From the NCBI GenBank assembly GCA_016866995.1, contig VGKQ01000007.1, forward strand, positions 1-47,982: a stretch of 47,982 bases of DNA, in the 5' to 3' direction. The position numbers and the translations under genes were made by a program. Under the pieces are notes generated by a model. That model ran no database searches. It was not told where the DNA came from and worked only from the letters and a program-made list of their open reading frames with translations. Below, piece by piece: positions 3,716 to 20,986 of this stretch (the first letter of the stretch is position 1; every line of letters begins with the position of its first letter). Origin of the DNA: Candidatus Pacearchaeota archaeon. Lineage in GTDB: Archaea; Nanobdellota; Nanobdellia; Pacearchaeales; GW2011-AR1.

Positions 3716-4195
3716 TTACCCCAAATAGCTCTTATCTTTTCTCTCTGATTTCTTGTCCCAGCTTTTTTGAAGAGATTTTGCTATTTTCTTCATATCTTCC
3801 TTAATTTCCCTCCACTCGTTGAAAACGTGTATAATAAACTCTGCCTCATTTTTCTCAGAATAATCATTGTCAATTTCAACTACTTCAATTTTCAACCTTC
3901 CAAGTTTAGAGTATAAATCTTCAAGTATTTTTTTGTCCCCATTATCCAAGCCTTTTAATAATGCAAAAAAGAACATCGGCGCATTGCTCGGATTTAACAG
4001 CATTTCAATAAATCTCAGATAAGCTATAACCTTATCCATAATAACTTTTCTTATCTCTCTTAATAATGTGTCTGTCTCAAGCTCCTGGGCTTTCTCAATA
4101 TCAAATTCTTCATTTAACTCTTTGTAGCTTGGAAGTTTGTATTTTTTCTCAAGTTCTGAATAATTTTTTTTTAGTTTTGCAAGTTTGCTTTCCAT
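3716..4195 (-). CDS. Hypothetical coiled-coil protein
   Basis: A 159-residue charged protein. The first 35 residues look coiled-coil (MESKLAKLKKNYSELEKKYK) and the middle is helical and hydrophobic (LNPSNAPMFFFALLKGLDNGD). A Lys/Ser-rich tail follows. I recognise no enzyme motif. It is the gene immediately left of the transposon insertion and is transcribed away from it. Confidence 0.7.
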   Translation of the reverse strand: MESKLAKLKKNYSELEKKYKLPSYKELNEEFDIEKAQELETDTLLREIRKVIMDKVIAYLRFIEMLLNPSNAPMFFFALLKGLDNGDKKILEDLYSKLGRLKIEVVEIDNDYSEKNEAEFIIHVFNEWREIKEDMKKIAKSLQKSWDKKSERKDKSYLG

Positions 4196-4228
4196 CTTTC
4201 TAGTTTGTCAAGTAAATTTATAAATCTA

Positions 4229-4239
4229 TGCAAAATTGT
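4229..4239. repeat. Left copy of 11-bp target-site duplication
   Basis: TGCAAAATTGT directly abuts the left inverted repeat. An identical copy abuts the right inverted repeat at 11162-11172 in the same orientation. This is the signature of a transposition event. Joining the flanks through one copy rebuilds a plausible empty intergenic site. Confidence 0.85.
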
Positions 4240-4263
4240 GCATTGTTAAGTTAAAGGGACTTC
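4240..4263 (+). repeat. Left terminal inverted repeat of the transposon
   Basis: Reads GCATTGTTAAGTTAA, then A, then GGGACTTC. The right end (11138-11161, read on the minus strand) is identical except that the sixteenth base is C. Confidence 0.88.
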
Positions 4264-4292
4264 ATAAGTTGTAACTCGAAAGTTTATAGAAA

Positions 4293-4326
4293 TATTTAAA
4301 TAGTAGTAATACTTACTAATAAGTAT
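4293..4326 (+). promoter_or_regulatory. Promoter and palindromic operator of the RHH gene
   Basis: A TATA-like TATTTAAAT at 4293-4301 is centred about 28 nt before the ATG at 4325, so the transcript should be leaderless. Overlapping the start is a perfect palindrome, ATACTTA-ctaa-TAAGTAT (4309-4326). A ribbon-helix-helix protein bound there would block the transcription start, which suggests autorepression. The palindrome is seen; the binding is inferred. Confidence 0.65.
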
Positions 4327-4480
4327 GGATAAGAAATACCAGAAACTTACTATAACACTACCAGAAAATCTATTAAAAGAGTTTAAAGAGTTTTGTGAAA
4401 AGAACGGTATTAATCTTAGCAGCAGAATTGCTATCCTAATCAAAGAGGATTTAGAAAAGAAAAATCCTTTAAAGAAATAA
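4325..4480 (+). CDS. Ribbon-helix-helix (CopG-like) regulator
   Basis: A 51-residue protein with the ribbon-helix-helix layout: a beta-strand YQKLTITLPENLLKEFKEFC, then a helix-turn-helix pair NGINLSSRIAILIKEDLEKK. RHH proteins are dimeric DNA-binding repressors. It lies 35 nt upstream of the transposase, inside the left transposon end. A 7-bp inverted repeat overlaps its own start codon. It probably controls expression of itself and perhaps the transposase. Confidence 0.8.
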   Translation: MDKKYQKLTITLPENLLKEFKEFCEKNGINLSSRIAILIKEDLEKKNPLKK

Positions 4481-4515
4481 ATTGAACGAAGCCCCGAAGG
4501 GCTTCGGGAATCAAA

Positions 4516-5469
4516 ATGTACGGTCAAGCACAATTCAATTCCAAATATAGAAATAAGAACAGATATAAAAACCTTTCTTGTCCTAATTGTAATTCTGAAT
4601 ATATAAAAAAAAGAGGTTTTAGACAAACACAAAATAGAGGAAAGATTCAGAGATACTCTTGTAAGAATTGTAAATATAGATTTACCTATGATGATGGATT
4701 TTTTAGGATGAGAAACGATCCTCAAAAGATAACTCTCTGTCTCGATCTATTCTATAGAGGGATAAGTACAAGAAAAATCCAAGAACATCTACAAGCCTTT
4801 TATCCTGAAAATACAAGTTGGGTTTCTATATACTCTTGGGTTATTAAATATCCAAGGATAATAAGCAAGTTTACAGATAGATTAGAAGTTAAAACTGGCT
4901 CTGAAATCCAAGTAGATGAGCTAGAATATCATAGGAGAAAAAGCCATAAAAGAAAATTAGGTGTAGATAAAAACTGGTTTATAGATAGTATAGATACAGA
5001 AACAAGATTTATGGTGGCTTCTGAATATGTAAAAGCAAGAGAACGAAGAGAAATAAGAGGTATTTTAAAAAAGATTAAAGAAAAATCAGAAAATCAAGCT
5101 AAAGTAGTTACAACTGATGCCCATCCTATTTATGAGAATGTCGTAAAGAAAGTTTTTGGATATGATAAGCATAATAGAAAATATAATATTATTCATAATG
5201 TAGTTAATGCTTTTCAAGGAGAAGGTTTTAATCATCCTATTGAAAGACTACATAATTCAGTAAGGCATAGAACCAAAACATTTAGAGGTTTTCATGGTAG
5301 TATTGATAGTGCGAAAGCAATTATGAAAGGAATAGAGATTTACTATAACTTCATAACAAAACATCAAGCTATAAATTGCTGTCCTTATGAATTAGCTGTT
5401 CCAGAATTAAAACTGGGTGTAAATAAATGGTTGGAGTTAATTAGACTATCAAAAACTTTTAATTGTTAA
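4516..5469 (+). CDS. IS6-like DDE transposase with N-terminal zinc ribbon
   Basis: A 317-residue transposase. It has a zinc ribbon (C22, C25, C49, C52), a helical DNA-binding region (RGISTRKIQEHL), and a DDE domain with candidate catalytic residues D134 (QVDEL), D201 (TTDAHP) and E243 (PIERLHN). The C-terminal FRGFHGSIDSAKAIMKGIE matches the IS6/IS240 pattern. It appears intact and is the only transposase in the element. It would act on the 24-bp ends at 4240 and 11161. Confidence 0.88.
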   Translation: MYGQAQFNSKYRNKNRYKNLSCPNCNSEYIKKRGFRQTQNRGKIQRYSCKNCKYRFTYDDGFFRMRNDPQKITLCLDLFYRGISTRKIQEHLQAFYPENTSWVSIYSWVIKYPRIISKFTDRLEVKTGSEIQVDELEYHRRKSHKRKLGVDKNWFIDSIDTETRFMVASEYVKARERREIRGILKKIKEKSENQAKVVTTDAHPIYENVVKKVFGYDKHNRKYNIIHNVVNAFQGEGFNHPIERLHNSVRHRTKTFRGFHGSIDSAKAIMKGIEIYYNFITKHQAINCCPYELAVPELKLGVNKWLELIRLSKTFNC

Positions 5470-5599
5470 AAAGCAGCTTATTAGATGTTCAATTGAACTT
5501 TATACCTTTAAACCCCCTCTTTCTTCTTTAGTCTTATCTTATTTAGAGAAATCCTTACTAAATTTATAAAAACAATATAGGATGTACCGAAGAATCATA

Positions 5600-6049
5600 T
5601 CATTTATTTCTAAAATCATCAATTTTTTCTTTTTTGAAAAGGATTTCTCCTTTAAGAGCTTTTTCTAATACCTTCTTTAACACATTTTTATCCGAATCCC
5701 AGTTTATTTTTTCTATAAAATCATTTAATTTTAACCACATAAAATCTACGTGCTCTTGGCTAAGCTTTATTTTTCCCTTTTTTACAAACGCCAAGAAATT
5801 CTTTTCTTTATGATCTCTTCCGTCCCAAGAATAAATGGAAGCCCAATTCAAATCAATTATTTCTTTAACATCTAAGTTAGTTTCTTCCTTTATCTCTCTT
5901 TTAACTGCCTCTTTTTCATTTTCATCTTTTTCTATACTGCCTGTTACAGTAAACCAATGATCTCCTCCATGTGAAAGGTCTTCAGAATTATTTCTAAGCA
6001 GCAAGAATCTTTCTTTGTCATAAACAAAAGCGAGTATTTTTTTATTCAT
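5600..6049 (-). CDS. Nudix hydrolase (transposon cargo)
   Basis: A 149-residue Nudix protein. The Nudix box is at residues 37-59: G37, E43, then REIKEET with R51, E52, E55 and E56. It departs from the consensus only at the Gly before the last hydrophobic residue (Asn here). Nudix enzymes cleave nucleoside diphosphates linked to another group. It is the last gene of the cargo operon, 34 nt after the SPOUT gene. It could clear a nucleotide product or activate a precursor; no substrate is readable. Confidence 0.88.
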   Translation of the reverse strand: MNKKILAFVYDKERFLLLRNNSEDLSHGGDHWFTVTGSIEKDENEKEAVKREIKEETNLDVKEIIDLNWASIYSWDGRDHKEKNFLAFVKKGKIKLSQEHVDFMWLKLNDFIEKINWDSDKNVLKKVLEKALKGEILFKKEKIDDFRNK

Positions 6050-6083
6050 ATTATCTTTATCTATTTTAAGTTTATATTTCTTT

Positions 6084-6599
6084 CTAGATAAACTTATAAT
6101 CTCTTATTTTTCTCTCTGGTAATATAGCATTTTTCCTGATCCAATCATATATTGCAATAGCCAAAGAAGTTGCTACATTTAAACATTCGACGTCCCCATA
6201 CTGAGGTAGTTTTATTAATTCAGATCTTTCTAATAATTTTTCTGGCATACCTCTTCCTTCATTACCCACAACTAGTACTGGATTTTCTGGATATTTAAAA
6301 TCAAATATATTTGTAGCATTTGGAGAGATCTCTAAAGCACATAAATTGTAACTCTTTTGGTCTACATACTCTAAAAATTCATCAAGTGTCCTTAAACGCG
6401 TAACTGGTGTTTTTCCTTTTGCAGATGTTATACCAGTCCAATCAAACTTTCTTCTTCCAACAATAATAACTTCTTTTACTGCAGCAGCATTTGCTGTTCT
6501 TATGATCCCTCCTATATTTACATCCTTCTCTAAATACATTGTTGCAATAGCTAAGTTATGCAATCTTCTACGCTCTTGCAATGAATATTGGTGTTCCAT
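6084..6599 (-). CDS. SPOUT (TrmH/SpoU-type) RNA 2'-O-methyltransferase
   Basis: A 171-residue SPOUT methyltransferase using S-adenosylmethionine on RNA ribose. All three motifs are present: VNIGGIIRTANA with the catalytic Arg, VLVVGNEGRGMP, and LNVATSLAIAIYDWIR with the Asn. The start at 6599 is chosen because GGAAGGAG lies just upstream of that ATG; a longer frame to 6623 is open but less likely. It overlaps the upstream methyltransferase by 32 nt. The target RNA is unknown. It is one of two SPOUT proteins in this operon. Confidence 0.88.
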   Translation of the reverse strand: MEHQYSLQERRRLHNLAIATMYLEKDVNIGGIIRTANAAAVKEVIIVGRRKFDWTGITSAKGKTPVTRLRTLDEFLEYVDQKSYNLCALEISPNATNIFDFKYPENPVLVVGNEGRGMPEKLLERSELIKLPQYGDVECLNVATSLAIAIYDWIRKNAILPERKIRDYKFI

Positions 6600-7287
6600 T
6601 TTCTTCTCCTTCCTCAAATCCATATTTAAGCCTAAATCTTAGACCTGCTCTCTTTAAAATTTTTTTCATTTCATCAATTCCATATATTCTTATTCTGTGC
6701 TGGTCTACATACATATCTATTTTTCCAGTAGAATTATTCTTTATTAAATATAAAGGATTCCATAAAGAAATTGCATCTTTTGAATGTGAAGTGAAGAGTT
6801 CTACTACATCATATTTACCATTACTATTCGCAGTTATATTAGTATATCCCTCTTTCCATCTTTCTTTACAATAAGCTAAGTCGAATATTATTTTTCCTTG
6901 AGGACAATGTCTTCTAAAGTTACTCAAGGTTCCTATCAAATCATCTTCTGTTAAGTTATACTGAATTGAACTGGATAAACAAAAAAGAAGATCAAATTCT
7001 TCATTAATTCTAAAATTTCTCATATCACCCCATACCAATCTGGCTTCAAGATTTTTCTTTCTGGCGACCCTTAACATTTCTTTGTTTATATCAACTCCGA
7101 AAAGTATTAAAGAATGTCTCATTCTTCTTATTGCTGTTAGATGGCTTCCAGTGCCACAAGCAACATCAAGAATTCTTGCACCTTCTTTTTCTCCCAATTC
7201 TCTTAGAAGAAATCTTGCTTCGCTATCATAATCTCTATAAGAATAAAGTAAATCATAAAATTTTGCTATGTCTTGATAAAGTTTCAT
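6568..7287 (-). CDS. Class I SAM methyltransferase, sugar N-methyltransferase-like
   Basis: A 239-residue Rossmann methyltransferase. Motif I is ILDVACGTGSHL, followed by GVDINKEML (acidic ribose-binding residue) and WGDMRNFR. The DVACGTGxHL form and overall length recall DesVI/TylM1-type nucleotide-sugar N-methyltransferases, though small-molecule methyltransferases in general cannot be separated this way. It overlaps the SLOG gene by 4 nt and the SPOUT gene by 32 nt, so it is part of the cargo operon. Confidence 0.82.
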   Translation of the reverse strand: MKLYQDIAKFYDLLYSYRDYDSEARFLLRELGEKEGARILDVACGTGSHLTAIRRMRHSLILFGVDINKEMLRVARKKNLEARLVWGDMRNFRINEEFDLLFCLSSSIQYNLTEDDLIGTLSNFRRHCPQGKIIFDLAYCKERWKEGYTNITANSNGKYDVVELFTSHSKDAISLWNPLYLIKNNSTGKIDMYVDQHRIRIYGIDEMKKILKRAGLRFRLKYGFEEGEENGTPIFIARA

Positions 7288-7847
7288 TTTCCTACCAGTC
7301 CTATTTTTTCTAATATAACATCTAATTCCGATGGTGTATTAAAATATCTTATATCTACTTCTTCTTCTAATTCTGGTTGTAATCTTGAACTTATTGCTTT
7401 TTCATATAAAAGTATGGGAATTCTTCTTTTTAAGTATCTGAAATGATATGCAGAATATGCTATTTCTGTTAATGTTCCTGGGGATAAACCAAACCCTATC
7501 ATTACATCTCCTTTTAAACTTAGACAAGTATTTAAAGTACTCCACCCCCCATCTATCTCCTCTAAAGAATCACAGTAGTTAAAATATCTCTTCAATTCTT
7601 CACATCCTCCTTTTGGTAAGTAACCTATTACTCTCAATCCTCCATTTTCTTTATAAGACTTTGCAATATCAAGAGGAATACCTTCATCTGGAATTATAAT
7701 TACTCTATGAATATGTTTAGCAAGAACTCTTCCAAATTCTTGTTTTAATGTTTCATATTCGTCTTCTTTAATTTTTCCGAATCTAAATATCTTAGTTTTA
7801 TCAGTAGGTCCAATTAGTAATGCTGATAGTTGATTTTTACCTGACAT
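7284..7847 (-). CDS. SLOG/LOG-type nucleotide-binding protein
   Basis: A 187-residue Rossmann-like protein. Its key motif is GFGLSPGTLTEIAYSAYHFRYLKRRIPILLY, the counterpart of the PGGxGTxxE motif of LOG proteins (here SPGTLTE). Family members either release bases from nucleoside monophosphates (LOG phosphoribohydrolases) or sense nucleotides. The first Gly pair of the classic motif is altered, so activity is uncertain. It overlaps the flavoprotein-aldolase gene by 11 nt and the methyltransferase by 4 nt. Confidence 0.68.
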   Translation of the reverse strand: MSGKNQLSALLIGPTDKTKIFRFGKIKEDEYETLKQEFGRVLAKHIHRVIIIPDEGIPLDIAKSYKENGGLRVIGYLPKGGCEELKRYFNYCDSLEEIDGGWSTLNTCLSLKGDVMIGFGLSPGTLTEIAYSAYHFRYLKRRIPILLYEKAISSRLQPELEEEVDIRYFNTPSELDVILEKIGLVGK

Positions 7848-8901
7848 TTTTTAATTTCTCCTCCAATTTTCTTTCAGCATCTCTCAAAGAGTCACCCAAA
7901 CTTAACTCCCCATGAAGTCTCATAATAGCAAAACCATTATTCATCTTTAGTAATTCTAAAATTTTAATCGCTTCTCCAAATTTACCATACCTTAAATATT
8001 CTGCGGAAGCATATTTTTGCATTAGAGGATTGTAAGTCAAAAGTTTAATGTGAGTATGTATTAGTGCTTTAGCAGTAGGAATTGATTGATATACTTCTGA
8101 TATCAATGGTGTTTCTGAAGAGGGATGTTTTACCCCTTGCCATTTAACTTTATCTGTATCTAAACTTATAACCAAAGACAAATCATCTTTAGTTAAACTT
8201 CCAACGTTTGATCCTGAAGCAGAAATTAATATCCCATTATCAACTTTTTCGCTTATAAAACCTGCAGAACCTTTGACCAGATCATTTTCAAGCAGGGATT
8301 CTCCAACAATCCTAAATTCAGAAAAATGTTCGTCCACAAGTCTAAAATATTTTTCGTCGGGTAGCAATCTCTCAGATTCATATCTTATTTTAGAAAAGCA
8401 TTGGTAAGTAGTATCTGCTATTTTTTCTAAAGGAGCCATTGTAACCTTTTCAGGAGTAATTTCTGGCCAAACAACTTGACATCCCCATTGTTGAAGAGTC
8501 TCTAAAGACCTTCCCATAATAGGATGTTCCCAAAGAGAGCGATTCATGGCTGGAGCGAAAATTACTTTTTTCTTCTTACCAATAGCACTAGCAACAACAG
8601 TTAAAGGATAACTGTCTGCTACTCCTTGAACAATTTTATTTAAAGTATTAAAAGTGCATGGGACAACTAAAACAATATCTTCTAAAGGCAATTCATTTCC
8701 ATTCTTTGAATAATCTAAAGAAACTATGTTCCCTTCTATTTCAAAATCTCTTAAATTTACTATTTGCCTAGCCATATCGGTCAAAAAAGTATAAATTCTT
8801 GCCCCCTCATTAACAAACTCTTTAATGAGATTAGGGATAATCGAACATTTTTTTGCTCCACTCATTACTAGATAAACAGTTTTATTTTCTAAAGTTTTCA
8901 T
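7837..8901 (-). CDS. Flavoprotein decarboxylase-like / class II aldolase fusion
   Basis: A 354-residue two-domain protein. Residues 1-180 look like the HFCD flavoprotein family (CoaC/Dfp, EpiD): YLVMSGAKKC at the start, VVPCTFNTLNKI, and PAMNRSLWEHP, the PxMNxxMW FMN-binding motif. Residues about 195-350 look like a class II aldolase/epimerase: GILISASGSNVGSL, then SSETPLISEVYQ, an HTH zinc pair (ALIHTHI) and a later RLHGELSLG His. I know of no standard enzyme with this fusion. It overlaps both operon neighbours by 4 and 11 nt. A coupled decarboxylation and retro-aldol step is an inference. Confidence 0.75.
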   Translation of the reverse strand: MKTLENKTVYLVMSGAKKCSIIPNLIKEFVNEGARIYTFLTDMARQIVNLRDFEIEGNIVSLDYSKNGNELPLEDIVLVVPCTFNTLNKIVQGVADSYPLTVVASAIGKKKKVIFAPAMNRSLWEHPIMGRSLETLQQWGCQVVWPEITPEKVTMAPLEKIADTTYQCFSKIRYESERLLPDEKYFRLVDEHFSEFRIVGESLLENDLVKGSAGFISEKVDNGILISASGSNVGSLTKDDLSLVISLDTDKVKWQGVKHPSSETPLISEVYQSIPTAKALIHTHIKLLTYNPLMQKYASAEYLRYGKFGEAIKILELLKMNNGFAIMRLHGELSLGDSLRDAERKLEEKLKNVR

Positions 8902-9374
8902 CTTTTTGCCTCCAATTGTCTATAATATTCATAAGCAATTATAGAAACTGCTACAGGCAGTGTTAAAAAAGGAACTTCCTTGCTAATTGGAATAGATACT
9001 ATTTCATCTAGTTTTGATATTTTTTCTCTGCTCAATCCTCCAGACTCTGATCCAAAAACAAAAATACTTTTTCCTTCTGACAGGTCTAATTCAAATACAG
9101 ACTTTTGAAAATGAGGAGAAGTTCCAATTAAATACCTTCCTCTTTCATGTAGCTCTCTAACAGCAAAGTCAAAAGTTTCAAATCTCTCAATGTACGGTAA
9201 AGAATTAATTTTCCATGATCGAACTTTTGAAGTTATTTTTCTATTCTGCATATCAACAGAATTTCCAGAAATATAGAGATCACAGTTTCTAACAGCCAAA
9301 GCTACTTGAATTATATGTGCGGCATCGTAAGGTGCTCTTAGACAATCAAATAAAAGACCTATTTTCTTTTCCAT
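8898..9374 (-). CDS. SPOUT-fold protein with altered active-site residues
   Basis: A 158-residue TrmH-like fold protein. The central IFVFGSESGGLSREKISKLDEIVSIPI is a good SPOUT motif 2. In motif 1 the Asn and catalytic Arg positions appear as Asp and Gln (APYDAAHIIQVALA). In motif 3 the Asn is Thr (LTLPVAVSIIAYEYYRQ). S-adenosylmethionine binding may be kept, but normal 2'-O-methylation is doubtful. It overlaps the FAD enzyme by 16 nt and the fusion gene by 4 nt. It may partner the second, canonical SPOUT protein of the operon. Confidence 0.75.
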   Translation of the reverse strand: MEKKIGLLFDCLRAPYDAAHIIQVALAVRNCDLYISGNSVDMQNRKITSKVRSWKINSLPYIERFETFDFAVRELHERGRYLIGTSPHFQKSVFELDLSEGKSIFVFGSESGGLSREKISKLDEIVSIPISKEVPFLTLPVAVSIIAYEYYRQLEAKR

Positions 9375-10288
9375 TTTTCTCTTAAAAATTTATTTGCGTT
9401 ATATTCTGCAATAGATCCTTGCGCAGCAGCAACTATTATTTGTTTTAAATTACCAGTGATGTCTCCTGCAGCATATATTCCGGGAATATTTGTAGCCATA
9501 TTTTGATCTACTTTTATATAACCATCTTCATTTAGGTTCAACCCTAATTTTTTAGCTAAGTCATTGTTGGGAACAAGACCAATACAAACAAATACACCAT
9601 CAGCAACTAATTTTTCTAATCCTTTTGGGCTTTTTACTGAGATTGTTGCTAAATGCTCTTCTCCCTCTAATGAGATTATTTGAGAGCTAGTTCGATACGG
9701 AATTCTAGCTTCAAAAATTTTTCTGAGATACTTTTCTTTACAATTTAACTGTGGATCTCTTTCGATAATTTCAACATCGCAGCCAAGATCTCTAAGATAA
9801 AGAGCAGTTACAGCTCCTGTATTTCTTCCTCCAACAACAAAAACCTTCTTCCCTATAAACCTCTTGCCGTCAGGAACACAATAATAAAAAACAGATTGTC
9901 CTGAAAATTTGTCTATTCCTTGAGCATTTAATTTCTTTTGTTTAGTTCCAGTACAAATTATAATAGAATCTGCTAATATACTACCATCATTAGAAAAAAT
10001 TCTAAACCCGTCATCCATTTTTATAATATCAATTACTTTTGATATTTTTGCAGAAACACTATTATTACATAAATGATCTTTAAATCTCAAAATTAAATCA
10101 GTCCCGCTAATTGAATTAAAGCCAAGATAATTATCAACTGTATAATGTGAATCAACTGAAACTCTTGGAAACCACCCCTCCCCTTGAGATTCATAAAGAA
10201 CAAAGTTTAGACTGTCATTTCTTGCATTTAAGGCTACAGACATTCCAGCAGGACCTGCACCAATTATAGCTAAGTCGTATCTTTCCAT
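9359..10288 (-). CDS. Thioredoxin-reductase-like FAD/NAD(P) oxidoreductase lacking CxxC
   Basis: A 309-residue two-dinucleotide-domain flavoprotein. The FAD site is IIGAGPAGMSVAL at the N-terminus, the NAD(P) site VVGGRNTGAVTALYL in the middle, and the FAD-closing motif GIYAAGDITGN near the end. Where thioredoxin reductases have CATCDG this protein has YCVPDG, so the redox cysteine pair is absent. It more likely acts as a ferredoxin/NAD(P) reductase-like or small-molecule oxidoreductase. It follows the first methyltransferase by 1 nt in the cargo operon. Confidence 0.85.
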   Translation of the reverse strand: MERYDLAIIGAGPAGMSVALNARNDSLNFVLYESQGEGWFPRVSVDSHYTVDNYLGFNSISGTDLILRFKDHLCNNSVSAKISKVIDIIKMDDGFRIFSNDGSILADSIIICTGTKQKKLNAQGIDKFSGQSVFYYCVPDGKRFIGKKVFVVGGRNTGAVTALYLRDLGCDVEIIERDPQLNCKEKYLRKIFEARIPYRTSSQIISLEGEEHLATISVKSPKGLEKLVADGVFVCIGLVPNNDLAKKLGLNLNEDGYIKVDQNMATNIPGIYAAGDITGNLKQIIVAAAQGSIAEYNANKFLREKWKRK

Positions 10289-10289
10289 G

Positions 10290-11012
10290 TTATTTTCTCC
10301 CAGTTATTATTATCGGATCGGAAGTAATATCTACTCTATCTCTACCTTTAAAATAATTTTTAATGGCATTCACATCTTCGTTTCTAACTTCATCTAAAAA
10401 AGGGAACATATTTATGATTTTTAAAATATCTTCGAGAGAATAACTTCTTTTAATAAATAGTTCCTTTAATAATAAATTTTTAAAACCAACTGCCTCTAAT
10501 CTATTAATATAAAAACTTGGCTCTCTAGCTCTTATTAGTCTTCCTCTAAAAAGATCTGCTATTTCAATTAAGCCCTTACCTTGCCCATACTCTCTGAAAA
10601 AGAACATACCGCCCTTTCTTAAAACACGATATACTTCTGACTCTGAGAAATTAGTAACATTTTTAGCAGTAACAGCATTGAAATAATTTGATTGAAATGG
10701 CAAATTAAAATTATCTCCTAAAACAACTGCTATGGGCAATCCTTTAACTCTTCCTCTTGCTTTTGATAACATTTCTTCTGAGTTATCTAAGCCACACAAT
10801 TCTGAGTACCTATTTGTATATCTTCTTGCTAATTGTTCTAAAACAAAGGCATCTCCAGTACCAATATCAAGTATTCTATCTCCTTCCTGTGTGTTTTCAA
10901 ATATCAATTTAAAGAAAAATTCATTAATATCATAAGAACCTTCTATTCTGCTTCTAAAAAATTCTTCTCTAGCTTCAGCTCTAGATGAATTATAAAATTT
11001 TGGGATGCTCAT
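10290..11012 (-). CDS. Class I SAM methyltransferase, first gene of cargo operon
   Basis: A 240-residue methyltransferase with motif I ILDIGTGDAFVLEQL, CGLDNSEEML, GDNFNLPF and a VLRKGGMFFFRE beta-strand 5. The ATG at 11012 is chosen over an upstream in-frame GTG at 11030 because a TATA-like ATTTAAAT is centred about 26 nt before it, giving a leaderless start. It heads an eight-gene unit whose members overlap or are 1-34 nt apart. The substrate is unknown. Confidence 0.83.
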   Translation of the reverse strand: MSIPKFYNSSRAEAREEFFRSRIEGSYDINEFFFKLIFENTQEGDRILDIGTGDAFVLEQLARRYTNRYSELCGLDNSEEMLSKARGRVKGLPIAVVLGDNFNLPFQSNYFNAVTAKNVTNFSESEVYRVLRKGGMFFFREYGQGKGLIEIADLFRGRLIRAREPSFYINRLEAVGFKNLLLKELFIKRSYSLEDILKIINMFPFLDEVRNEDVNAIKNYFKGRDRVDITSDPIIITGRK

Positions 11013-11034
11013 GTTATTATAATTTAACACAAGT

Positions 11035-11042
11035 ATTTAAAT
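11035..11042 (-). promoter_or_regulatory. TATA-like promoter of the cargo operon
   Basis: ATTTAAAT is centred about 26 nt upstream of the ATG at 11012, the expected archaeal TATA position for a leaderless message. It lies inside the right end of the transposon, so the element brings its own promoter for the cargo. Confidence 0.6.
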
Positions 11043-11137
11043 TTTACTACTTTAAAATTATGAATATTTTTATAATCAATGATTTTACTTACCTAAAGTT
11101 CAAATTAGAATTAAAAGTTAATTATTTTAAATAAGAA

Positions 11138-11161
11138 GAAGTCCCGTTAACTTAACAATGC
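11138..11161 (-). repeat. Right terminal inverted repeat of the transposon
   Basis: Read on the minus strand this is GCATTGTTAAGTTAA, then C, then GGGACTTC. It matches the left end at 23 of 24 positions. Confidence 0.88.
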
Positions 11162-11172
11162 TGCAAAATTGT
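11162..11172. repeat. Right copy of 11-bp target-site duplication
   Basis: TGCAAAATTGT, identical and in the same orientation to 4229-4239, begins at the base after the right inverted repeat. Confidence 0.85.
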
Positions 11173-11194: not shown

Positions 11195-11380
11195 TTAACT
11201 TCCTATCCATTTCCAGAATATTCCAGCCATAATAATAAAACCTATTCCAACTAAGAGAATACCTAATATAATAACAACCCCTGCATTTATTCCCTGAAAT
11301 AATAAAGCAATTCCTAAAAAGAATAAAAAAATCCCTATTATAAATAAAATTAATCCAATTAATGCCTTTGAAACCATCAT
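11195..11380 (-). CDS. Small two-helix membrane protein
   Basis: A 61-residue, almost wholly hydrophobic protein with two predicted transmembrane helices (about residues 6-28 and 32-54) joined by a short QGINAG turn. It ends in FWKWIGS. No family is recognised. It is the first host gene to the right of the transposon. Confidence 0.6.
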   Translation of the reverse strand: MMVSKALIGLILFIIGIFLFFLGIALLFQGINAGVVIILGILLVGIGFIIMAGIFWKWIGS

Positions 11381-11462: not shown

Positions 11463-11547
11463 GCCTCAGTAGCTCAGCAGGTTAGAGCGCGACATTGGTA
11501 TCAAAACAAAAATGTCGAGGTCGGGAGTTCGATTCTCCCCTGAGGCT
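11463..11547 (+). tRNA. tRNA-Thr (GGT) with 11-nt intron
   Basis: The acceptor is GCCTCAG/CTGAGGC with discriminator T, the D-arm GCTC/GAGC, the anticodon stem CGACA/TGTCG and the T-arm GGGAG-TTCGATT-CTCCC. The loop reads TTGGTA, then 11 extra nt (TCAAAACAAAA), then A, so the intron sits after position 37 as is usual in archaea. The anticodon is GGT. Confidence 0.9.
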
Positions 11548-12153: not shown

Positions 12154-13665
12154 TTAACTTCTTATAATAGTCTGATTTCTGTCAGGCCCCATTGATAAAA
12201 TTCTTGCTCTGACTCCTGCCTCTTTTTCAATAAACTCAACAACATCTCTCAATTTTTGAGGAAGAGCATCATAATCTTTTATATCAGCAGTGGGGGTTTT
12301 CCAGCCACGAAATTTTGTATATAATGGCTGGCAGTGTCTCAAAACTTCTGCATCAGGAATTGCAACCTCTAATAAATCTCCTCTTTTTAAAGTTCTTCTA
12401 CCAAGCTGATAGTTATCTCCCTGATAAATATAACCATGACAAATTTTAATTGTGTCTGCTGTATCAAACACTTGTAATTTTGTAAGCACAATATCACTTC
12501 CATTAACTTGAATTGCATATCTTAATAAAGGCAAGTCAAGCCATCCTGTTCTTCTCGGCCTTTTTGTTGTAGCCCCATACTCTCCCCCATCTCTCCTTAC
12601 TGCAACTCCTCTCCTAAACTCATCTGCATCATTCACGCTTGCATCTGCAAATTCTTTTTCTTCATCCTGTCTTGTATGAGACGAGCACCACTCTTCTGAT
12701 TTTTTTCCTCCAATTTCTGTTGGGAAAGGCCCTCCTCCAACTCTAGTCATATATGGAGCCTTTACAACTCCTAAAACTAAATCAACATCTTTCTCTGACA
12801 ATCCAACTCCTTTAGCTAATCCAGGAATTGAACATTCAGAACTTGTAACATACGGATAGCTTCCATAATCAATGCTTAATAATAAACCCTGAGCTCCCTC
12901 TAATAAGACTCTTTTTTCCTGTGTCCTTGCTTTTCTCACAATCTCATCAGTATCAGCAATAAAATCTTTTAATCTTTCTCCGTATTTTCTATAAGCTTCA
13001 ATAATAGCATCAATATCAAAGAAATTTTCTTGATGATAAAATGCCCCATTTTCTAGCCTAGAGTCATGCATAATCTCAAAAAAAGCCTGGCTTGTCGGGC
13101 TTATACCCATCCCTTTTAGAACAGCCACATGCATTTGCAAACTTTTCTCCAATCCGCTTCTTAAAACATCCGGATTAAGCATATCATTGACAAATAATCC
13201 TCTTCTTGCAACATGGTCTGAATAAACAGGCCCTATTCCTCTCATAGTGGTTCCTATTCTGGATTTTCCAGCAACAAGTTCTCCGAGAGCGTCTGCAACA
13301 ATATGTTGAGGAAGAACAAGTCTTCCATTATAAGCAATTCTTAGTCCATTGTAAGTTTTTCCTTTTTTCTCAAGTTTCTCAATCTCCTCAACAACTTCCC
13401 GGGGGTCAAAGGCAACGCCATTTCCTATAACATTTATTTTTCCTTCTGAATCATGCAGAATTCCTGATGGAATAATATGAAAAATAGTTTCCTCGCCTCC
13501 AATATTAATTGTATGTCCTGCATTTGCACCTCCTGTTCCCCTCACAATAAAATCAGCCCACTCAGAAGCAATCAAATCAACAATTTTTCCTTTTCCAGTA
13601 TCTCCCCACTGGTTGCATACAACTGCTACAACATTTTTTCCTGCTAAAAATTCTTCAAGTTTCAT
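12154..13665 (-). CDS. purA: Adenylosuccinate synthetase
   Basis: Converts IMP, Asp and GTP to adenylosuccinate. Residues 17-28 hold QWGDTGKGKIVD, the GDEGKGK phosphate loop with the catalytic Asp kept and Glu changed to Thr. GGANAGHTI carries the catalytic His, and SRIGTTMRGIGPVYSDHVAR and TSSECSIPGLAKGVG the IMP and GTP sites. At 503 residues it is clearly longer than most PurA proteins (about 340 in many archaea, about 430 in bacteria). It is the last gene of the seven-gene purine operon and overlaps guaB by 4 nt. Confidence 0.93.
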   Translation of the reverse strand: MKLEEFLAGKNVVAVVCNQWGDTGKGKIVDLIASEWADFIVRGTGGANAGHTINIGGEETIFHIIPSGILHDSEGKINVIGNGVAFDPREVVEEIEKLEKKGKTYNGLRIAYNGRLVLPQHIVADALGELVAGKSRIGTTMRGIGPVYSDHVARRGLFVNDMLNPDVLRSGLEKSLQMHVAVLKGMGISPTSQAFFEIMHDSRLENGAFYHQENFFDIDAIIEAYRKYGERLKDFIADTDEIVRKARTQEKRVLLEGAQGLLLSIDYGSYPYVTSSECSIPGLAKGVGLSEKDVDLVLGVVKAPYMTRVGGGPFPTEIGGKKSEEWCSSHTRQDEEKEFADASVNDADEFRRGVAVRRDGGEYGATTKRPRRTGWLDLPLLRYAIQVNGSDIVLTKLQVFDTADTIKICHGYIYQGDNYQLGRRTLKRGDLLEVAIPDAEVLRHCQPLYTKFRGWKTPTADIKDYDALPQKLRDVVEFIEKEAGVRARILSMGPDRNQTIIRS

Positions 13666-15161
13666 TTTTGAGTATAATTTGGTGCTTCTTTAGTCATTGT
13701 TATACCATGAGGATGGCCTTCTTTTACTGCTGCACTAGTTTGTCTTTTAAATCTTGCCCTTCTCCAAAGCTCTGGAATAGTTCTTGCCCCATGATAACCC
13801 ATTCCGGATTTTATCCCCCCAATAAACTGATAAACAACATCTTTCAAAGGTCCTTTTAATGGAACAGCTCCCTCAACTCCTTCTGGAACAAATTTATCTG
13901 GAGTGGATTGCTCCTGTGAATACCTTGAAGCAGTCTGATTATCAATCATTGCTCCAAGCGAACCCATCCCTCTGTAAACCTTAAATCTTGCTCCAGTCTT
14001 GTCAACAATTATGCCTCCAACAGATTCATCTGTAGCAGCAAAATTACTTCCCATCATTACACTTGAAGCGCCTGCAGCAAGAGCTTTTACAGCATCTCCT
14101 GAATGTTTTATTCCCCCATCAGCAATTGCTGTTTTTCCGTATCTTCTTGCAATTCTTGAGCAGTCATAAACAGCAGTAAGCTGAGGCACACCAACCCCTG
14201 AAACAACTCGCGTTGTACAGATTGTGCCCGGCCCTATTCCAACCTTGACAGCATTTACACCTGCTTTAATCAAATCAACAGCACCTTCACAAGTTGCAAC
14301 ATTTCCTGCAATTAATCCAAATTCATAACTTTTGAAATTTTTTCTCAATTCTCGAACAGTTCTTATAACATTTTCAGAATCTCCATGAGCAGTTCCGACA
14401 AGAAGCACATCGCACTTTGCTTCAAGTAATCTTTCAGCTCTTTCAAAGTCTAAAACTCCAACATTTGCCCCAACTCTTAATCTTCCTTCCTTGTCTCTAT
14501 TAAACATGGGAGTTCTTCCTTCAACTATTTCTTTGACATCTTTAAAACAATACAATCCTTTCAATTCTCCTGTTTTAGAAACAACAATTAACTTTGCTAC
14601 CTGGTGTTTTTTCATATAATCATATGCTTCATCAACACTCATTCTGCTTGTAGTCATGTGTGGATTTTGAACCATAAAATTTTTAACCAAATCTCTTTCA
14701 TCTGCAAACTGTGTTCTATCCTTAGTGAGTAATCCAGTAACTTTCCCTGCTTCATTTAAAACAACTAAGGTTGAAAATCTATCTTGATATTTAGCCAGAG
14801 TTTCTCTAACTTCTTTGAATGTCTGACTGTCTCGTATTGTTATTGGCTTGTCTATTAATGCATTAAAAGCATACTTTACAGCATTAACCCATGAAACTTG
14901 TTCATCTATGCTTAGAGATTTCCACAAAAATCCTAAGCCTCCTTCCATAGCAAGTTTAATTGCTAATTCTGCTTCTGTCACAGTATCCATATCTGCGCTC
15001 ACTAATGGAATTTTTAATGGAATTTCTGGAGTCAGGAGAGTATCAAGGCAGACATCTCTTGGAACAACAGAGCTTCTTCTTGGCTCAAGATAAACATCAT
15101 CAAAAGTAAATCCTTCATACTTAAAATACTGAAAAAATTTATCTGCTTGGGTTGTTCTCAT
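13662..15161 (-). CDS. guaB: IMP dehydrogenase
   Basis: Oxidises IMP to XMP, the first committed step to GMP. It is a 499-residue TIM barrel interrupted by two CBS domains (about residues 105-225). The catalytic Cys loop is [17 protein letters not shown], the phosphate site [10 protein letters not shown], and the flap region [13 protein letters not shown]. It is 1 nt downstream of purB and overlaps purA by 4 nt, so both IMP branch enzymes are co-transcribed. Confidence 0.95.
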
Positions 15162-15162
15162 C

Positions 15163-16605
15163 TCACACTTTCACATCAGATTTAGTTCCAAGAGAACCTT
15201 CCTCAGCTTCCAAAATCGGAAGGATTTCATGATAATAAAAACATTCAGCCTGTTGTGGAGCTCTTCCTGTGAATTTTTTTACATCAAGTGCCTCTCTTAT
15301 TTCTCCAGCAGTCAATCCAACTCTTGTATCTTTTCCAAGCATCTCAAGAAGATGATTGGGCTGTCCTTCCACTTTTATTAATCTTGCTGCTTCATGAGAA
15401 TACTGCCTTATTATCTCATGAACTTCCTGCCTGTTTCTTCCTTTTTTAACAGCAGCCATTAAAATATTTTCAGTTGCCATGAATGGCATTTCTAACTCCA
15501 GATTTGCCTGGATAACAGCAGGAAAAACAGCCGGAGCTTCCATGACATTCATTGCAAGATTTAAAACCTCATCTGCTGCAATAAATGCCTGTGCAACATA
15601 ATCTCTTCTTGGAGCAGAATCATCTAAAGTTCTTTCAAGCCACTGAACAGAAGCAGTCATTCTTGCCTCAAGTTCTCGTGCAAACAATCCTCTTGCCAAG
15701 CCGCACATTCTCTCTAATCTCATAGGATTTCTCTTGTAAGCCATTGCAGAGCTTCCAACCTGTTCTTTTTCAAACGGCTCTTCAAATTCCTTCCTGTTCT
15801 GCAAAATTCTTGCATCACTTCCAAATTTATGCGCAGACTCCCCTATTCCTGCAAGTGCGGAAAGAATCATGCTGTCATATTTTCTTGGATATGTCTGCCC
15901 TGTAACCATAAAAACAGCATCTGAAAATCCCAAGTTTCTTAAAAATAATCTCTCAAGTCCGCATACTTTTTTTTCATCACCATTTGCAAGCTCAAGAAAA
16001 CTTGCCTGTGTTCCTGTTGCTCCCTTTAATCCTCTTAATCTAAAATTATCATATAATGCTTTTACATGATGATAATCTAAAACAAAATTCTGCGCCCACA
16101 TCGCAGCCCTCTTTCCAAGAGTTGTAGGCTGTGCTGCCTGAAAATGAGTAAATCCAAGACAGGCTAAATCTTTATATGTCACTATAAATTCCCCAAATAC
16201 ATCCAAAGTTCCTGCTAATTTTGATTTCACTAATCCAAGAGCCTCGTGCATCTGCATTAATTCTGCATTATCTGTAATATCACATGAAGTTGCCCCTGCG
16301 TGTATAATTCCTGCTGCACCAGGGCACTGCTGCCCGAAAGCATAAACATGAGCCATAACATCATGCCTGATTTCTCTTTCTTTTGCATCTGCAACATCAT
16401 AATTAATCTTATTAGCATACTGCTTTAATTGCGCAACTTGTTCTCTTGTAACTCCTGCCAATCCCAACTCGCATTCTGCTTCTGCAAGAGCAATCCAGCA
16501 TTTTCTCCATGCCTGAAACTTATAATCATCAGAAAAAATCGGGCTCATTGATTTCCCATATCTTCTTCCCAGCAAGCTTGAATATTTTGTTCTGTCTTCT
16601 GTCAT
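15163..16605 (-). CDS. purB: Adenylosuccinate lyase
   Basis: Releases fumarate from SAICAR and from adenylosuccinate. A 480-residue fumarase-superfamily protein. The signature loop is GSSAMAYKRNPMRLERM; GATSCDITDNAEL and TLGKRAAMWAQ are the other conserved regions, with the catalytic His candidate in FTHFQAAQPTT. It sits between purH and guaB with gaps of 22 nt and 1 nt. It serves both the pathway to IMP and the AMP branch. Confidence 0.94.
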   Translation of the reverse strand: MTEDRTKYSSLLGRRYGKSMSPIFSDDYKFQAWRKCWIALAEAECELGLAGVTREQVAQLKQYANKINYDVADAKEREIRHDVMAHVYAFGQQCPGAAGIIHAGATSCDITDNAELMQMHEALGLVKSKLAGTLDVFGEFIVTYKDLACLGFTHFQAAQPTTLGKRAAMWAQNFVLDYHHVKALYDNFRLRGLKGATGTQASFLELANGDEKKVCGLERLFLRNLGFSDAVFMVTGQTYPRKYDSMILSALAGIGESAHKFGSDARILQNRKEFEEPFEKEQVGSSAMAYKRNPMRLERMCGLARGLFARELEARMTASVQWLERTLDDSAPRRDYVAQAFIAADEVLNLAMNVMEAPAVFPAVIQANLELEMPFMATENILMAAVKKGRNRQEVHEIIRQYSHEAARLIKVEGQPNHLLEMLGKDTRVGLTAGEIREALDVKKFTGRAPQQAECFYYHEILPILEAEEGSLGTKSDVKV

Positions 16606-16627
16606 GTTAAATTAAATTTTAAATTAA

Positions 16628-17935
16628 TTACATAATTATATGTCCAAAGAATCTTCTTCCTGTAATTCCCTTTTCTCCTGCCTGATATCTTTTATATTGT
16701 TCAGGAGTCATTGTATAAACCATTTTAACTCTGTATCTTTCAGCAATCGGATTGATAACCTTGTCTCCAAGGCTTCCACCAGGCTGGACAACAACAGCAG
16801 GAATTAAATTACCATCATATTCAGGATTTAGATTATTTCTCTTTGGTATAAAAGTTACTTCCTGCTCGACTACACCAATTTTATCCTGATATTTCACTCC
16901 TCTGCTTGAGAATGAAGGATACACTCTGTCTAATCCTGCTGTTTCAACAAACCCGTCTAATTTAGGATAAAATGCATCTGAAAATGCAGTAAGCCTCAAT
17001 GGCTTTTCTATGCCAGTAAAATCATCTCTTGTAAATGGAGTATCAAACAAAACTCTTTCCCATATTTCTTTTGTATCTTCACTAAGTGCTGCATATGCAG
17101 AAACTTCAAGCATTCTTCTTGCTTTTTCAGCAGCAACTGTTCTTGCCCCGCACCCGTCTCCTAATCCTGCAATCGCGCCATTATGAACAAAAAAAACAAG
17201 ATTAGAAGCAAGATAAATTGCAGCATTTCCAGCAAAATTAATATCATCAATTAATCTTTTGCTAAGAGATTCTATTCTCGAGTCTCCTCTATTTCCTGTA
17301 ACTACAACAGCCTCTTTTCGCGCATCAAATCTTGGCTCTAGTGTTTGTTTTAAATAATGTCCGCCCACAACAGGCTGCAGATTATATCCCAAAACATTCA
17401 ATCCTGCTGGGGGAATTATTCCTGTCCTGACAAGAAATCTATTTTTATGTTTATCTTTAAGCTTGTCAACTGTTCCTTCTTCATAATCAGGAGCCATCAT
17501 TCCCTCAAAAAACATATCAGGCCTGTTAAAAAAAGCAGCAGTCTCTCGTGTTAAAGGAGTATTAAATCCCCAGACGCCTCCAAAAGGCGAGTTCAAATCC
17601 CCTGCAATTGCCTTGATAACTGCTTCTAATTGAGTTCTTCCATTTGCAATTACTACAGGGCGCGTATGTTTTGCAGCAACAGCAATATGTGGAGTTTCAG
17701 ATTCTCTGTATACATCTCCCAATCCGACGCTTGTCCTGAGGCAGGCGCTCATGTCTCCAATATTTGTCCATCCAGGAACTCTTGCTCTTGCTCCTAAATC
17801 TTTTTCAGGTGAAAAAACATCAACTCCCAAGGGTTTGCCTAACTCATCAACTGCCTGAAGAAGTTCTGCCCTAAGATGGCTGTTTTCCCCTCCCTTTAAG
17901 TCAATAACTTTTTTTAAATTAAGTTTTATGTCCAT
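16628..17935 (-). CDS. purH: AICAR transformylase, PurH-type without cyclohydrolase domain
   Basis: Formylates AICAR to FAICAR. The 435-residue protein corresponds to the transformylase part of PurH. AAKHTRPVVIAN resembles the KHxNPCG motif, DLNSPFGGVWGFN the SAFGG motif, and LASNLVFFVHNGAIAGLGDGCGART the GxGxGQxxR region. FSDAFYPKLDG and VVQPGGSLGDKVI complete the fold. The N-terminal IMP cyclohydrolase domain of bifunctional PurH is absent. That job can be done by the PurO gene just upstream. Confidence 0.88.
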   Translation of the reverse strand: MDIKLNLKKVIDLKGGENSHLRAELLQAVDELGKPLGVDVFSPEKDLGARARVPGWTNIGDMSACLRTSVGLGDVYRESETPHIAVAAKHTRPVVIANGRTQLEAVIKAIAGDLNSPFGGVWGFNTPLTRETAAFFNRPDMFFEGMMAPDYEEGTVDKLKDKHKNRFLVRTGIIPPAGLNVLGYNLQPVVGGHYLKQTLEPRFDARKEAVVVTGNRGDSRIESLSKRLIDDINFAGNAAIYLASNLVFFVHNGAIAGLGDGCGARTVAAEKARRMLEVSAYAALSEDTKEIWERVLFDTPFTRDDFTGIEKPLRLTAFSDAFYPKLDGFVETAGLDRVYPSFSSRGVKYQDKIGVVEQEVTFIPKRNNLNPEYDGNLIPAVVVQPGGSLGDKVINPIAERYRVKMVYTMTPEQYKRYQAGEKGITGRRFFGHIIM

Positions 17936-17957
17936 TTTCTTATTATTTTTTGATTAT

Positions 17958-18815
17958 TTATCTAACAGGCTTTTCATGATAATTTTTTGTTGCCCTGTCA
18001 ATTACTGCCCTTGGAAATCTTCTTAATTGTATAGCACTTACTCCCACTCTAAAATCTTTTTCAGGACTGATAATTCCCTCACCCGGCTGCTTTGGTCCGA
18101 GAACATTGTAAATATCATCAACAGCTAATTGAGCACTATTAAATGTCCAGAGCTCAACATCCAGAGGCTCGCCTGTAAAACACGGAATAATCTGTCCATC
18201 AGGAACATTTTGCCCAGTATAAGTTGAAACATATTTTGCCCTTCCCTGAACAAGAGGAAATTCAAAATAATTTCGCTGAGGTAAATCATTGTTATTCTTG
18301 ACTATTGAAATAGCAGCTTTGTTTAGTGAAAGCACGCCTGAAATTCTTGGTGTAAAATTAGGAGCATCTGGTTCAAAGCTTGTTAAATCAATATACTCTC
18401 CAGTAAATTTTCCGTCCTTCATAGCCCTAACCCAAACAGGATTGGCATGAGCATCCATTAAAGCAGCAACAGGATGTTTCTCATAAGCTTCCCTGCCTCT
18501 TTTATCTGCTCCTTTAATTGTTTCTGCAATAATATCTGTCTGCGCTCCATTGCTCACAATAAAAAAATCTCCAGCCAATTGCATTGCATTATAAATCAGC
18601 AATTCAGGTGTTCCTTTTTTAATTGCTTCAGGATCAATGCAGGAAGTTCTAACTCTATCTTCACTTTCCCACTCATCCTCAAGCCTTCTCGCCCTGCTCG
18701 GCGGGCTTCTTCCTGTGACAAAATACGCAACAAAATCTTTTCCATCTAAAGTTCTTCCTATTAAAATTCCCCTTCCGGGATATTCCTGTTTTGCAATAAA
18801 TTCTAATCCAGTCAT
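17958..18815 (-). CDS. purO: IMP cyclohydrolase, PurO type
   Basis: Closes FAICAR to IMP, the last step of IMP synthesis. The N-terminus GRGILIGRTLDGKDFVAYFVTGRSPPSRARRL is the hallmark of the archaeal PurO family (YxGRxIxxGR...YFVTGRSxxSR). The N-terminal nucleophile-type fold fits its length, though 285 residues is longer than the typical 200. It overlaps the purC-like gene by 4 nt. Together with the transformylase-only PurH it replaces bifunctional PurH. Confidence 0.88.
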   Translation of the reverse strand: MTGLEFIAKQEYPGRGILIGRTLDGKDFVAYFVTGRSPPSRARRLEDEWESEDRVRTSCIDPEAIKKGTPELLIYNAMQLAGDFFIVSNGAQTDIIAETIKGADKRGREAYEKHPVAALMDAHANPVWVRAMKDGKFTGEYIDLTSFEPDAPNFTPRISGVLSLNKAAISIVKNNNDLPQRNYFEFPLVQGRAKYVSTYTGQNVPDGQIIPCFTGEPLDVELWTFNSAQLAVDDIYNVLGPKQPGEGIISPEKDFRVGVSAIQLRRFPRAVIDRATKNYHEKPVR

Positions 18816-20095: not shown

Positions 20096-20131
20096 CTCCT
20101 TTTATTATTTTTAGAAAATATTTTTCCCATG

Positions 20132-20986
20132 TTATCTAATTACCTCTCCATTTTTTACAATTAATCCAGAATGAGCTGTTAAATCTGTTTGTTTTCTCTG
20201 TCTCTTTTCTTCAAATTTTAACAATGCACCAAGATTATTAGTCAATAAAGCAGCCATATAAACAGCATTCAAATATCCTTGTGAAGAAACAATTCCTGTT
20301 GCCCAAGTGTCATTTAAACAACCTAAATAGTCTTCTGGATTTTCATGAACAGGCGAACAACTCACCCCAACCTGTACTCCTCTTCCTCCTCTTAAAATTC
20401 TATCATAACGACTCAAGTCAGAATAATCAAAAGGAACTATAACAACCCCATGATAAAATTCTCCTGCATCTAAGTCAATAAATTCAATTCCAAAATCTCT
20501 AAGATGTTTTGCAATCTGTTCAAGCCCTTTTGTTAAACAATCATTTCTTCTAAAAGGTTGTTTTAATGCAACTCCTTTCAATCCATTAAAAAATCTCGAT
20601 GCGATATTGCACGCAGCATATGTATTATCAACACCAACACATAAAACAGGATTCATAGGAGGCTTTTCAGCAGTTGACAATAAAGCAGTCAATCCACAAG
20701 AACTTGAATCACTGATTGGAACTCCAATATGAATAGTGTGAGGATTTCTTTTTGATTTAATCGAGCCAGTTAAAACATTGCTCAACCCTGCGCCACTTAT
20801 TACAACAGGATGTCTTTCATCTTCTAATTGTCTTGCTATACCTTCAACTTTATCAGGGGTATTATCAGCAGAAGCATAGTAAATTCGAACTTCCAAACCA
20901 GCATGCTCTCTTGTAAATTCTAGAATTCCAGGAAGAATTTTTGCTTCATCGCTTGGTGAGCCAAAAACGGCATGAATTATCTGCAT
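20132..20986 (-). CDS. purE: PurE-like AIR carboxylase, divergent and extended
   Basis: The N-terminal 160 residues follow PurE: AVFGSPSDEAKILPGI, then ASADNTPDKVEGIA, VVISGAGLSNVLTGSI, IGVPISDSSSCGLTALLSTAEKPP and VDNTYAACNIASRF. The classic SAHRTP motif is SADNTP here, so the catalytic His and Arg are replaced. About 110 extra C-terminal residues follow (usual PurE is about 160). It heads the purine operon. PurE function is likely from context, but with altered chemistry or substrate. Confidence 0.75.
   Translation of the reverse strand: MQIIHAVFGSPSDEAKILPGILEFTREHAGLEVRIYYASADNTPDKVEGIARQLEDERHPVVISGAGLSNVLTGSIKSKRNPHTIHIGVPISDSSSCGLTALLSTAEKPPMNPVLCVGVDNTYAACNIASRFFNGLKGVALKQPFRRNDCLTKGLEQIAKHLRDFGIEFIDLDAGEFYHGVVIVPFDYSDLSRYDRILRGGRGVQVGVSCSPVHENPEDYLGCLNDTWATGIVSSQGYLNAVYMAALLTNNLGALLKFEEKRQRKQTDLTAHSGLIVKNGEVIR

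Follow-up and report, generated by a model that had tools for sequence, protein, structure and literature searches.

Is the 6.9-kb block that separates two conserved neighbors on an archaeal contig a complete mobile element, and, if so, of what kind is it and how was its site chosen? The block lies in a stretch of 47,982 nucleotides (nt), hereafter the window, which is contig C7 (VGKQ01000007.1) of a 1.06-Mb, 70-contig draft genome of a Candidatus Pacearchaeota archaeon (GCA_016866995.1). A preliminary description had taken the block for a cargo transposon with an IS6-like transposase and an 11-bp target duplication. Comparison with relatives indicates that it is very probably an intact unit transposon from a DPANN-archaeal clade of elements that make 9-bp duplications, act as a chassis for cargo and select promoters for insertion, the last property being absent from the preliminary description.

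The limits of the element are sharply marked. Inverted repeats of 24 bp at 4240–4263 and 11138–11161 agree at 23 of 24 positions, exactly as first described, and TGCAAAATTGT lies directly outside both (4229–4239 and 11162–11172), matching literally at 11/11 positions. With its ends placed at 4239 and 11162, the element measures 6,924 bp. A 20-bp end profile, built from elements other than the window's, exceeded 10 bits over the 48 kb only at these two ends (28.5 and 24.0 bits; next 10.0) and detected no internal end within the element, in line with the earlier statement that no internal inverted repeat is present. Between the ends lie, as also reported previously, a ribbon-helix-helix (RHH) gene, a transposase gene and an eight-gene operon with a promoter predicted from sequence. 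A single pair of ends with a target duplication thus encloses genes unrelated to transposition, the arrangement of a unit transposon. A composite transposon with two flanking insertion sequence (IS) copies was discarded, as the window has no internal or second end.

Scanning GTDB contigs with the window transposase yielded 80 loci, almost all labelled Pace-, Woese- or Nanoarchaeota or plain ‘archaeon’; the exceptions were one metagenome-assembled genome (MAG) each labelled Aenigmatarchaeota, Parvarchaeota and ‘bacterium’. Relatives with 44–75% identity occur in many genomes of its class; hits with an E value of 1e-60 or better were confined to that class when 378 genomes from the class and 279 from the phylum were sampled. 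Ends were located by an inverted-repeat scan followed by the end profile, with duplication lengths of 7–13 bp allowed. This procedure delimited 59 complete elements, nearly all from DPANN archaea, consisting of the window's and 58 others with transposases in the same 44–75% range. They span 1,993–7,820 bp with a median of about 4 kb. In the transposase tree, host families are intermixed, with near-identical proteins in families f1, f29 and f35. Further copies in the window's own genome comprised only L018, whose transposase is 59% identical, and a solitary end-like site on contig C33 (L229, 6729–6748; 18.7 bits). The latter has neither a partner end nor a transposase and is perhaps a relic of another element. 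A more distant group (L051–L056; transposase identity 33–35%) duplicates 8 bp, has TGAGCTGT or GGTTCTGT ends and also bears cargo, including methyltransferase genes.

The preliminary description had treated an 11-bp duplication as a sign of a distinct family or mechanism. Among the 59 elements, the duplication was exactly 9 bp in 50, matched at 8 of 9 positions in five, was exactly 8 bp in two and was 11 bp in none, while shifted controls produced a 9/9 repeat in one of 590 cases. Ends of the clade start with T[GA]CATTG, and the end profile has the terminal T at 97% of ends. In the window element, the left terminal base at 4239 is this family-conserved T and the right one at 11162, read inward, is changed to A. 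On sequence and comparison with the 59 elements, the duplication reads as 9 bp, GCAAAATTG, at 4230–4238 and 11163–11171 (neither assigned to a strand), plus one base per side. The repeat would look like 11 bp because the element's terminal bases at 4239 and 11162 match flank bases by chance, and the extra T's once counted with it belong to the element. On the end profile, the terminal inverted repeats accordingly occupy 4239–4263 (plus strand, terminal T by family consensus) and 11138–11162 (minus strand, terminal A for T read inward). That this copy came instead from a lineage in which the stagger is truly 11 bp, its mechanism differing from that of the 9-bp relatives, would suit the literal match and the right end that lacks the family terminal base. 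Such a lineage is nonetheless improbable: no other element has 11 bp, L044, with a 75% identical transposase, has 9 bp, and the promoter register described below fits the 9-bp boundary better (score 7/8) than the 11-bp boundary (5/8). A longer stagger in the window copy alone, as a one-off, keeps a slim residual chance.

The insertion sites also follow a regular pattern. Flanks of 49 exact sites displayed a palindromic AT pattern, and four of the 49 lay within an open reading frame (ORF) of at least 120 amino acids, compared with 698 of 860 random flank positions. When oriented to the side with the better match, the sites gave a consensus in which the 9-bp duplication is followed by A-AA-nn-TTTAWAWA (98% T at +8, 96% A at +3), which reads as the archaeal arrangement of B recognition element (BRE) and TATA box. 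We scored the register in 52 sites with AAnnTTTAWA (maximum 8, threshold 7/8) at shifts from −40 to +40. Forty-four sites reached at least 7/8 in the exact register, and every other shift to 40 nt gave between zero and six. Against a motif background of 1.6% outside ORFs, the binomial probability of this register is 8e-71. The motif was one-sided in 42 of the 44 sites, with the transposase pointing in the opposite direction in 26 and in the same direction in 18; since it is one-sided whichever way the transposase faces, it belongs to host DNA and not to the element. A start codon followed at a distance of 33–38 nt for 21 of the 44 targeted motifs versus 255 of 1,780 other intergenic matches (Fisher p 2e-7), and the majority of motif matches in the flanks fall inside ORFs. 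Targeting was seen with all types of small partner gene carried by these elements, and on this ground we attribute it to the transposase. For the window element, the motif corresponds by register score to the TATA box TTTATAAA (4217–4224, minus strand) of a host gene for a 159-amino acid protein. This box covers positions +6 to +13 relative to the duplication, and the ATG of the gene lies at +35, the commonest value. The L051–L056 group has a similar, slightly shifted motif tendency; two canonical IS6 copies tested showed no promoter register.

All 59 elements carry cargo, each containing at least one ORF of at least 100 amino acids besides the transposase. By contrast, a canonical IS6-type element from the same class (G115) is 941 bp long, has GGCACTGTTACC as its ends, duplicates 8 bp of its target and is free of cargo; two of its nine transposase copies had resolved ends. 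Its recovery without cargo means that the method can detect cargo-free elements. Pfam searches of 149 cargo proteins identified 16 N6_N4_Mtase proteins, four D12 and four C5 methylases, N6_Mtase/Eco57I proteins and restriction endonucleases (MjaI, HinP1I and MvaI/BcnI). DNA methyltransferase genes occur in about 27 of the 59 elements by manual count, with which PADLOC agrees, and DNA methyltransferase or restriction genes in roughly half. Other elements carry ABC-transporter operons (L024, L085, L097 and L103), surface proteins (L018 and L075), a subtilase (L019) or metabolic cassettes (L040, L091, L092 and the window's). Transposases are at least 80% identical in 26 pairs of elements, a single one of which has a cargo protein in common at an identity of at least 50%. 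The members of this pair are L018, which lies on contig C26 in the same genome as the window, and L075 from another family; their transposases are 94% and their cargo 48–96% identical, and they occupy different sites with different duplications (TATAAATCA and GTAATGTAG). This pair is the best evidence that transposase module and cargo can travel together. Restriction modules, in turn, recur on different chassis (L023/L035/L026, L032/L072 and L067/L128), and chassis and cargo evolve separately, with fast cargo turnover. One element with restriction-modification-type cargo was encountered in a viral contig (L207, IMGVR_UViG_3300001335_000237, 5904–9968), adjoining tailed-virus genes for the portal, the head protease and the major head protein. 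It has no target duplication, and chimerism or an adjacent deletion is possible; viruses may carry such elements between hosts.

The host locus itself gives a further view of the insertion. The conserved 159-amino acid gene (3716–4195, minus strand), identified by homologues in relatives and with a leaderless start at +35 from the duplication, stands on one side, and a tRNA-Thr(GGT) gene with an 11-nt intron (11463–11547, plus strand; Rfam 59 bits), its neighbor in relatives, stands on the far side of the element. The tRNA gene was missed by ARAGORN at default settings. A homologue of the 159-amino acid gene was found in 73 of 111 relatives. In L109 (genome G018) it lies ~60 bp from a tRNA-Thr(GGT) gene, also with an 11-nt intron, and the distance is similar in L111, L117 and L119, in each case with no transposase between. 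By our own reading, the two genes are within about 200 bp of each other in roughly ten of 19 loci. The locus thus exists without the element in relatives, and this gene order supports the earlier proposal that everything within the one pair of ends is a mobile package. A composite or decayed structure, in which a short IS landed beside a resident operon and the far end is a remnant of a second IS, would agree with the short, single-gene format of related ISfinder sequences (PMC7986276). We regard it as very unlikely, however, given that the window element has no internal end, that one duplication is common to both outer ends, that the entire block is missing at the locus in relatives and that all 59 elements share this build.

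The neighborhood has features of its own. G018 bears an element nearby whose transposase is among the two closest to the window's (74–75%). An element with one of these closest transposases ends near the neighborhood of the 159-amino acid gene (L230, G018 contig C9, 3477–3537), and a second end-like sequence lies just past its end, one neighborhood having been used repeatedly. Between the window element and the tRNA gene is a gene for a 61-amino acid membrane protein (11195–11380), of which the 19 loci examined in relatives yielded no detectable homologue. Beyond the tRNA gene, a run of genes read as purine biosynthesis (PurA- and IMPDH-like; 12154–20986, 35–39% GC) separates it from the gene at 21732–22031, the homologue of which is close to the 159-amino acid gene in relatives. 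This run is possibly a second insertion or rearrangement.

In the mechanism that we propose, three parts would form the core: inverted ends of ~24 bp, a DDE transposase with a zinc ribbon and, as its partner, a small DNA-binding protein, here of the RHH type. This core would mobilize anything between the ends, in this case a metabolic operon of eight genes under a promoter of its own. Movement would create the 9-bp target duplication. The transposition complex would pick host promoters and join the element just upstream of the BRE–TATA box, leaving the host promoter and the leaderless gene behind the insertion intact. The wider proposal, to which we give slightly better than even chances, is that the clade uses TBP/TFB bound to BRE–TATA as a landing platform at a fixed position upstream of promoters and constitutes a general DPANN delivery chassis with interchangeable cargo and partners. 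A possible, though less probable, alternative keeps the element as described and dispenses with transcription factors: the transposase itself would prefer AAnnTTTAWA, and in-gene insertions would later be purged. The motif alone accounts for the register and is also frequent in ORFs, where purging could act; this direct reading is disfavored by the start-codon distances, as targeted motifs are more often true promoters than other intergenic matches.

Several considerations weigh against our account as a whole. The census started from one transposase query, which biases it toward relatives of that query, and duplications of any length from 7 to 13 bp earned a bonus when ends were searched for. 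The evidence consists of sequences, mostly from draft assemblies of uncultured archaea. Taken literally, the window's own repeat is 11 bp. Its empty site was not recovered at the nucleotide level, because the other genomes searched represent different genera, and the support is gene order; joined flanks of two other elements, compared to congeneric genomes, gave matches to one flank only or weak matches. Regarding targeting, selection against in-gene insertions could add to the depletion in ORFs, although it cannot fix a single-base register, and it is conceivable that the transposase reads the DNA sequence directly, docking on TBP/TFB being what we infer from the promoter pattern.

The transposition module of the window element is encoded on the plus strand. 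A TATA-like box, TTTAAATA (4295–4302, plus strand), is predicted from archaeal promoter rules 30 nt before the ATG of the 51-amino acid RHH protein (4325–4480, plus strand), which is followed by the 317-amino acid zinc-ribbon DDE transposase (4516–5469, plus strand). Domain searches and alignment show D134, D201 and E243 and the four zinc-ribbon cysteines to be intact. An AlphaFold model of the transposase (predicted local distance difference test, pLDDT, 82) matched DDE transposases and retroviral integrases, with the Mutator-family transposase ISCth4 as the nearest structural match. A gene for a small DNA-binding-type protein is located within 700 bp of the 5′ side of the transposase gene in 44 of the 59 elements, encoding a zinc ribbon (30, divergent), RHH or AbrB protein. 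Inside elements (247 kb), there were 30 zinc-ribbon, 13 AbrB and 11 RHH hits, compared to one, zero and one in the flanks (704 kb). Domain and neighborhood comparison placed close homologues of the window RHH protein at the equivalent position in L031 and L044. Given this recurrent partner beside the transposase, the RHH protein is part of the transposition module, replacing its earlier interpretation as a separate regulator. We infer that it regulates or represses transposition or binds the ends.

The window's cargo consists of eight genes arranged head to tail on the minus strand from 5600 to about 11012. In order of transcription, domain searches identified a class I S-adenosylmethionine (SAM) methyltransferase (cargo 1, 10290–11012), a thioredoxin-reductase-like FAD/NAD(P) oxidoreductase (cargo 2, 9359–10288), a SpoU-type methyltransferase (cargo 3, 8898–9374), a flavoprotein–class II aldolase fusion (cargo 4, 7837–8901), a SLOG (LDcluster4) protein (cargo 5, 7284–7847), a further class I SAM methyltransferase (cargo 6, 6568–7287), a SpoU/TrmH-type methyltransferase (cargo 7, 6084–6623) and a Nudix hydrolase (cargo 8, 5600–6049). 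Cargo 1 probably starts at ATG 11012 rather than GTG 11030, with a putative TATA-like box (GTATTTAAA on the plus strand; 11033–11041, acting on the minus strand) 29 nt before this ATG. In both transcription units, a TATA-like box thus precedes the first ATG by 29–30 nt, the spacing expected where archaeal genes are leaderless. Among solved relatives, cargo 6 is closest to amino-sugar N,N-dimethyltransferases and the flavoprotein half of cargo 4 to PPC/EpiD-type decarboxylases; as a low-confidence guess, the cargo may be a small-molecule tailoring cassette. A defence role was considered and dropped after PADLOC gave no convincing match. A role in rRNA resistance, considered in view of the two SpoU proteins and a weak AviRa hit, was also rejected, the class I methyltransferase concerned (cargo 6) being far closer to amino-sugar N-methyltransferases. 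For the flavoprotein–aldolase fusion, 140 relatives gave single-domain matches only, GTDB contigs and IMG/VR contained no relative, and no plasmid match spanned 80% of the protein. Since the fusion gene as such is absent from the relatives and collections searched, the cargo appears to be a recent or rare arrival.

Where does the clade belong among known elements? With the best-hit NCBIfam IS6 profile, the window transposase scored 68.4 bits, below the cut-off of 125; all 29 alignment members matched this profile (best E value 1.6e-23, the bit score being that of the first member). Pfam DDE_Tnp_IS240 was exceeded at 32.6 bits (cut-off 27). The D–E spacing is 41 residues in the window and 40–45 in the close clade, departing from the DD(34)E of IS6 (PMC6807381). 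The IS1 profile stayed below its cut-off (42.4 versus 100 bits), the N-terminal IS1_IS1595_Zn match was weak (24 bits, cut-off 28) with all four cysteines intact, and five of 29 alignment members matched the IS1595 profile. IS1 makes duplications of about 9 bp, and IS1595 has passenger-carrying members (tIS). By the tests applied, the element falls outside the IS6 family, with an IS6-related catalytic domain, and, by profile score, outside IS1. The earlier suggestion of a distinct family holds in that the element stands apart from ISfinder IS6, but loses its original basis, the 11-bp duplication.

With IS6/IS26, the clade shares a homologous DDE domain and short inverted ends; it differs in size (2.0–7.8 kb), 9-bp duplication, universal cargo, the small partner gene, end sequences, DDE spacing and promoter targeting. 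IS6 members are mostly 700–890 bp with 8-bp duplications and a single recorded passenger carrier, ISDsp3, and some clostridial members have a zinc-finger extension (PMC7986276). The place of archaeal members in IS6 has been doubted (PMC6807381). Tn7-like transposons combine a fixed module with highly diverse cargo, including many defence systems (PMC8649781). The present elements resemble them in this respect and differ in having one transposase, a tiny partner and promoter targets. Tn7-like elements use several Tns proteins and attTn7 or RNA-guided targets. Ty3 and Ty1 of budding yeast and Tf1 of fission yeast integrate at preferred positions beside promoters, sparing genes in a compact genome. 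The fixed-register insertion seen here (44 of 52 sites) works in a similar way, and the likeness extends to this only, the yeast elements using eukaryotic retrotransposon integrases and the present ones being archaeal DDE DNA transposons at BRE–TATA promoters. Casposons, archaeal multigene transposons that likewise have inverted ends and duplicate their target (PMC6563490), use a Cas1 integrase; a casposon was rejected here, as domain searches found no Cas1 among the element's genes. No earlier description of the clade was found in open-licence full texts, a search that did not extend to subscription papers and preprints.

According to a 2019 survey, passenger-gene transposons are among the classes that had not been detected in archaea (PMC6563490). 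That statement and the description of IS6 passengers in PMC7986276 contrast with a clade, spread over many DPANN families, in which each of the 59 complete elements carries cargo. With the end profile and the promoter rule together, such elements can be delimited simply in MAGs. For gene-poor archaea, the clade provides a concrete vehicle to exchange restriction systems, transporters and metabolic cassettes. If promoter targeting at single-base precision is true, insertions would spare genes in compact genomes, and transposition would be tied to the archaeal pre-initiation complex.

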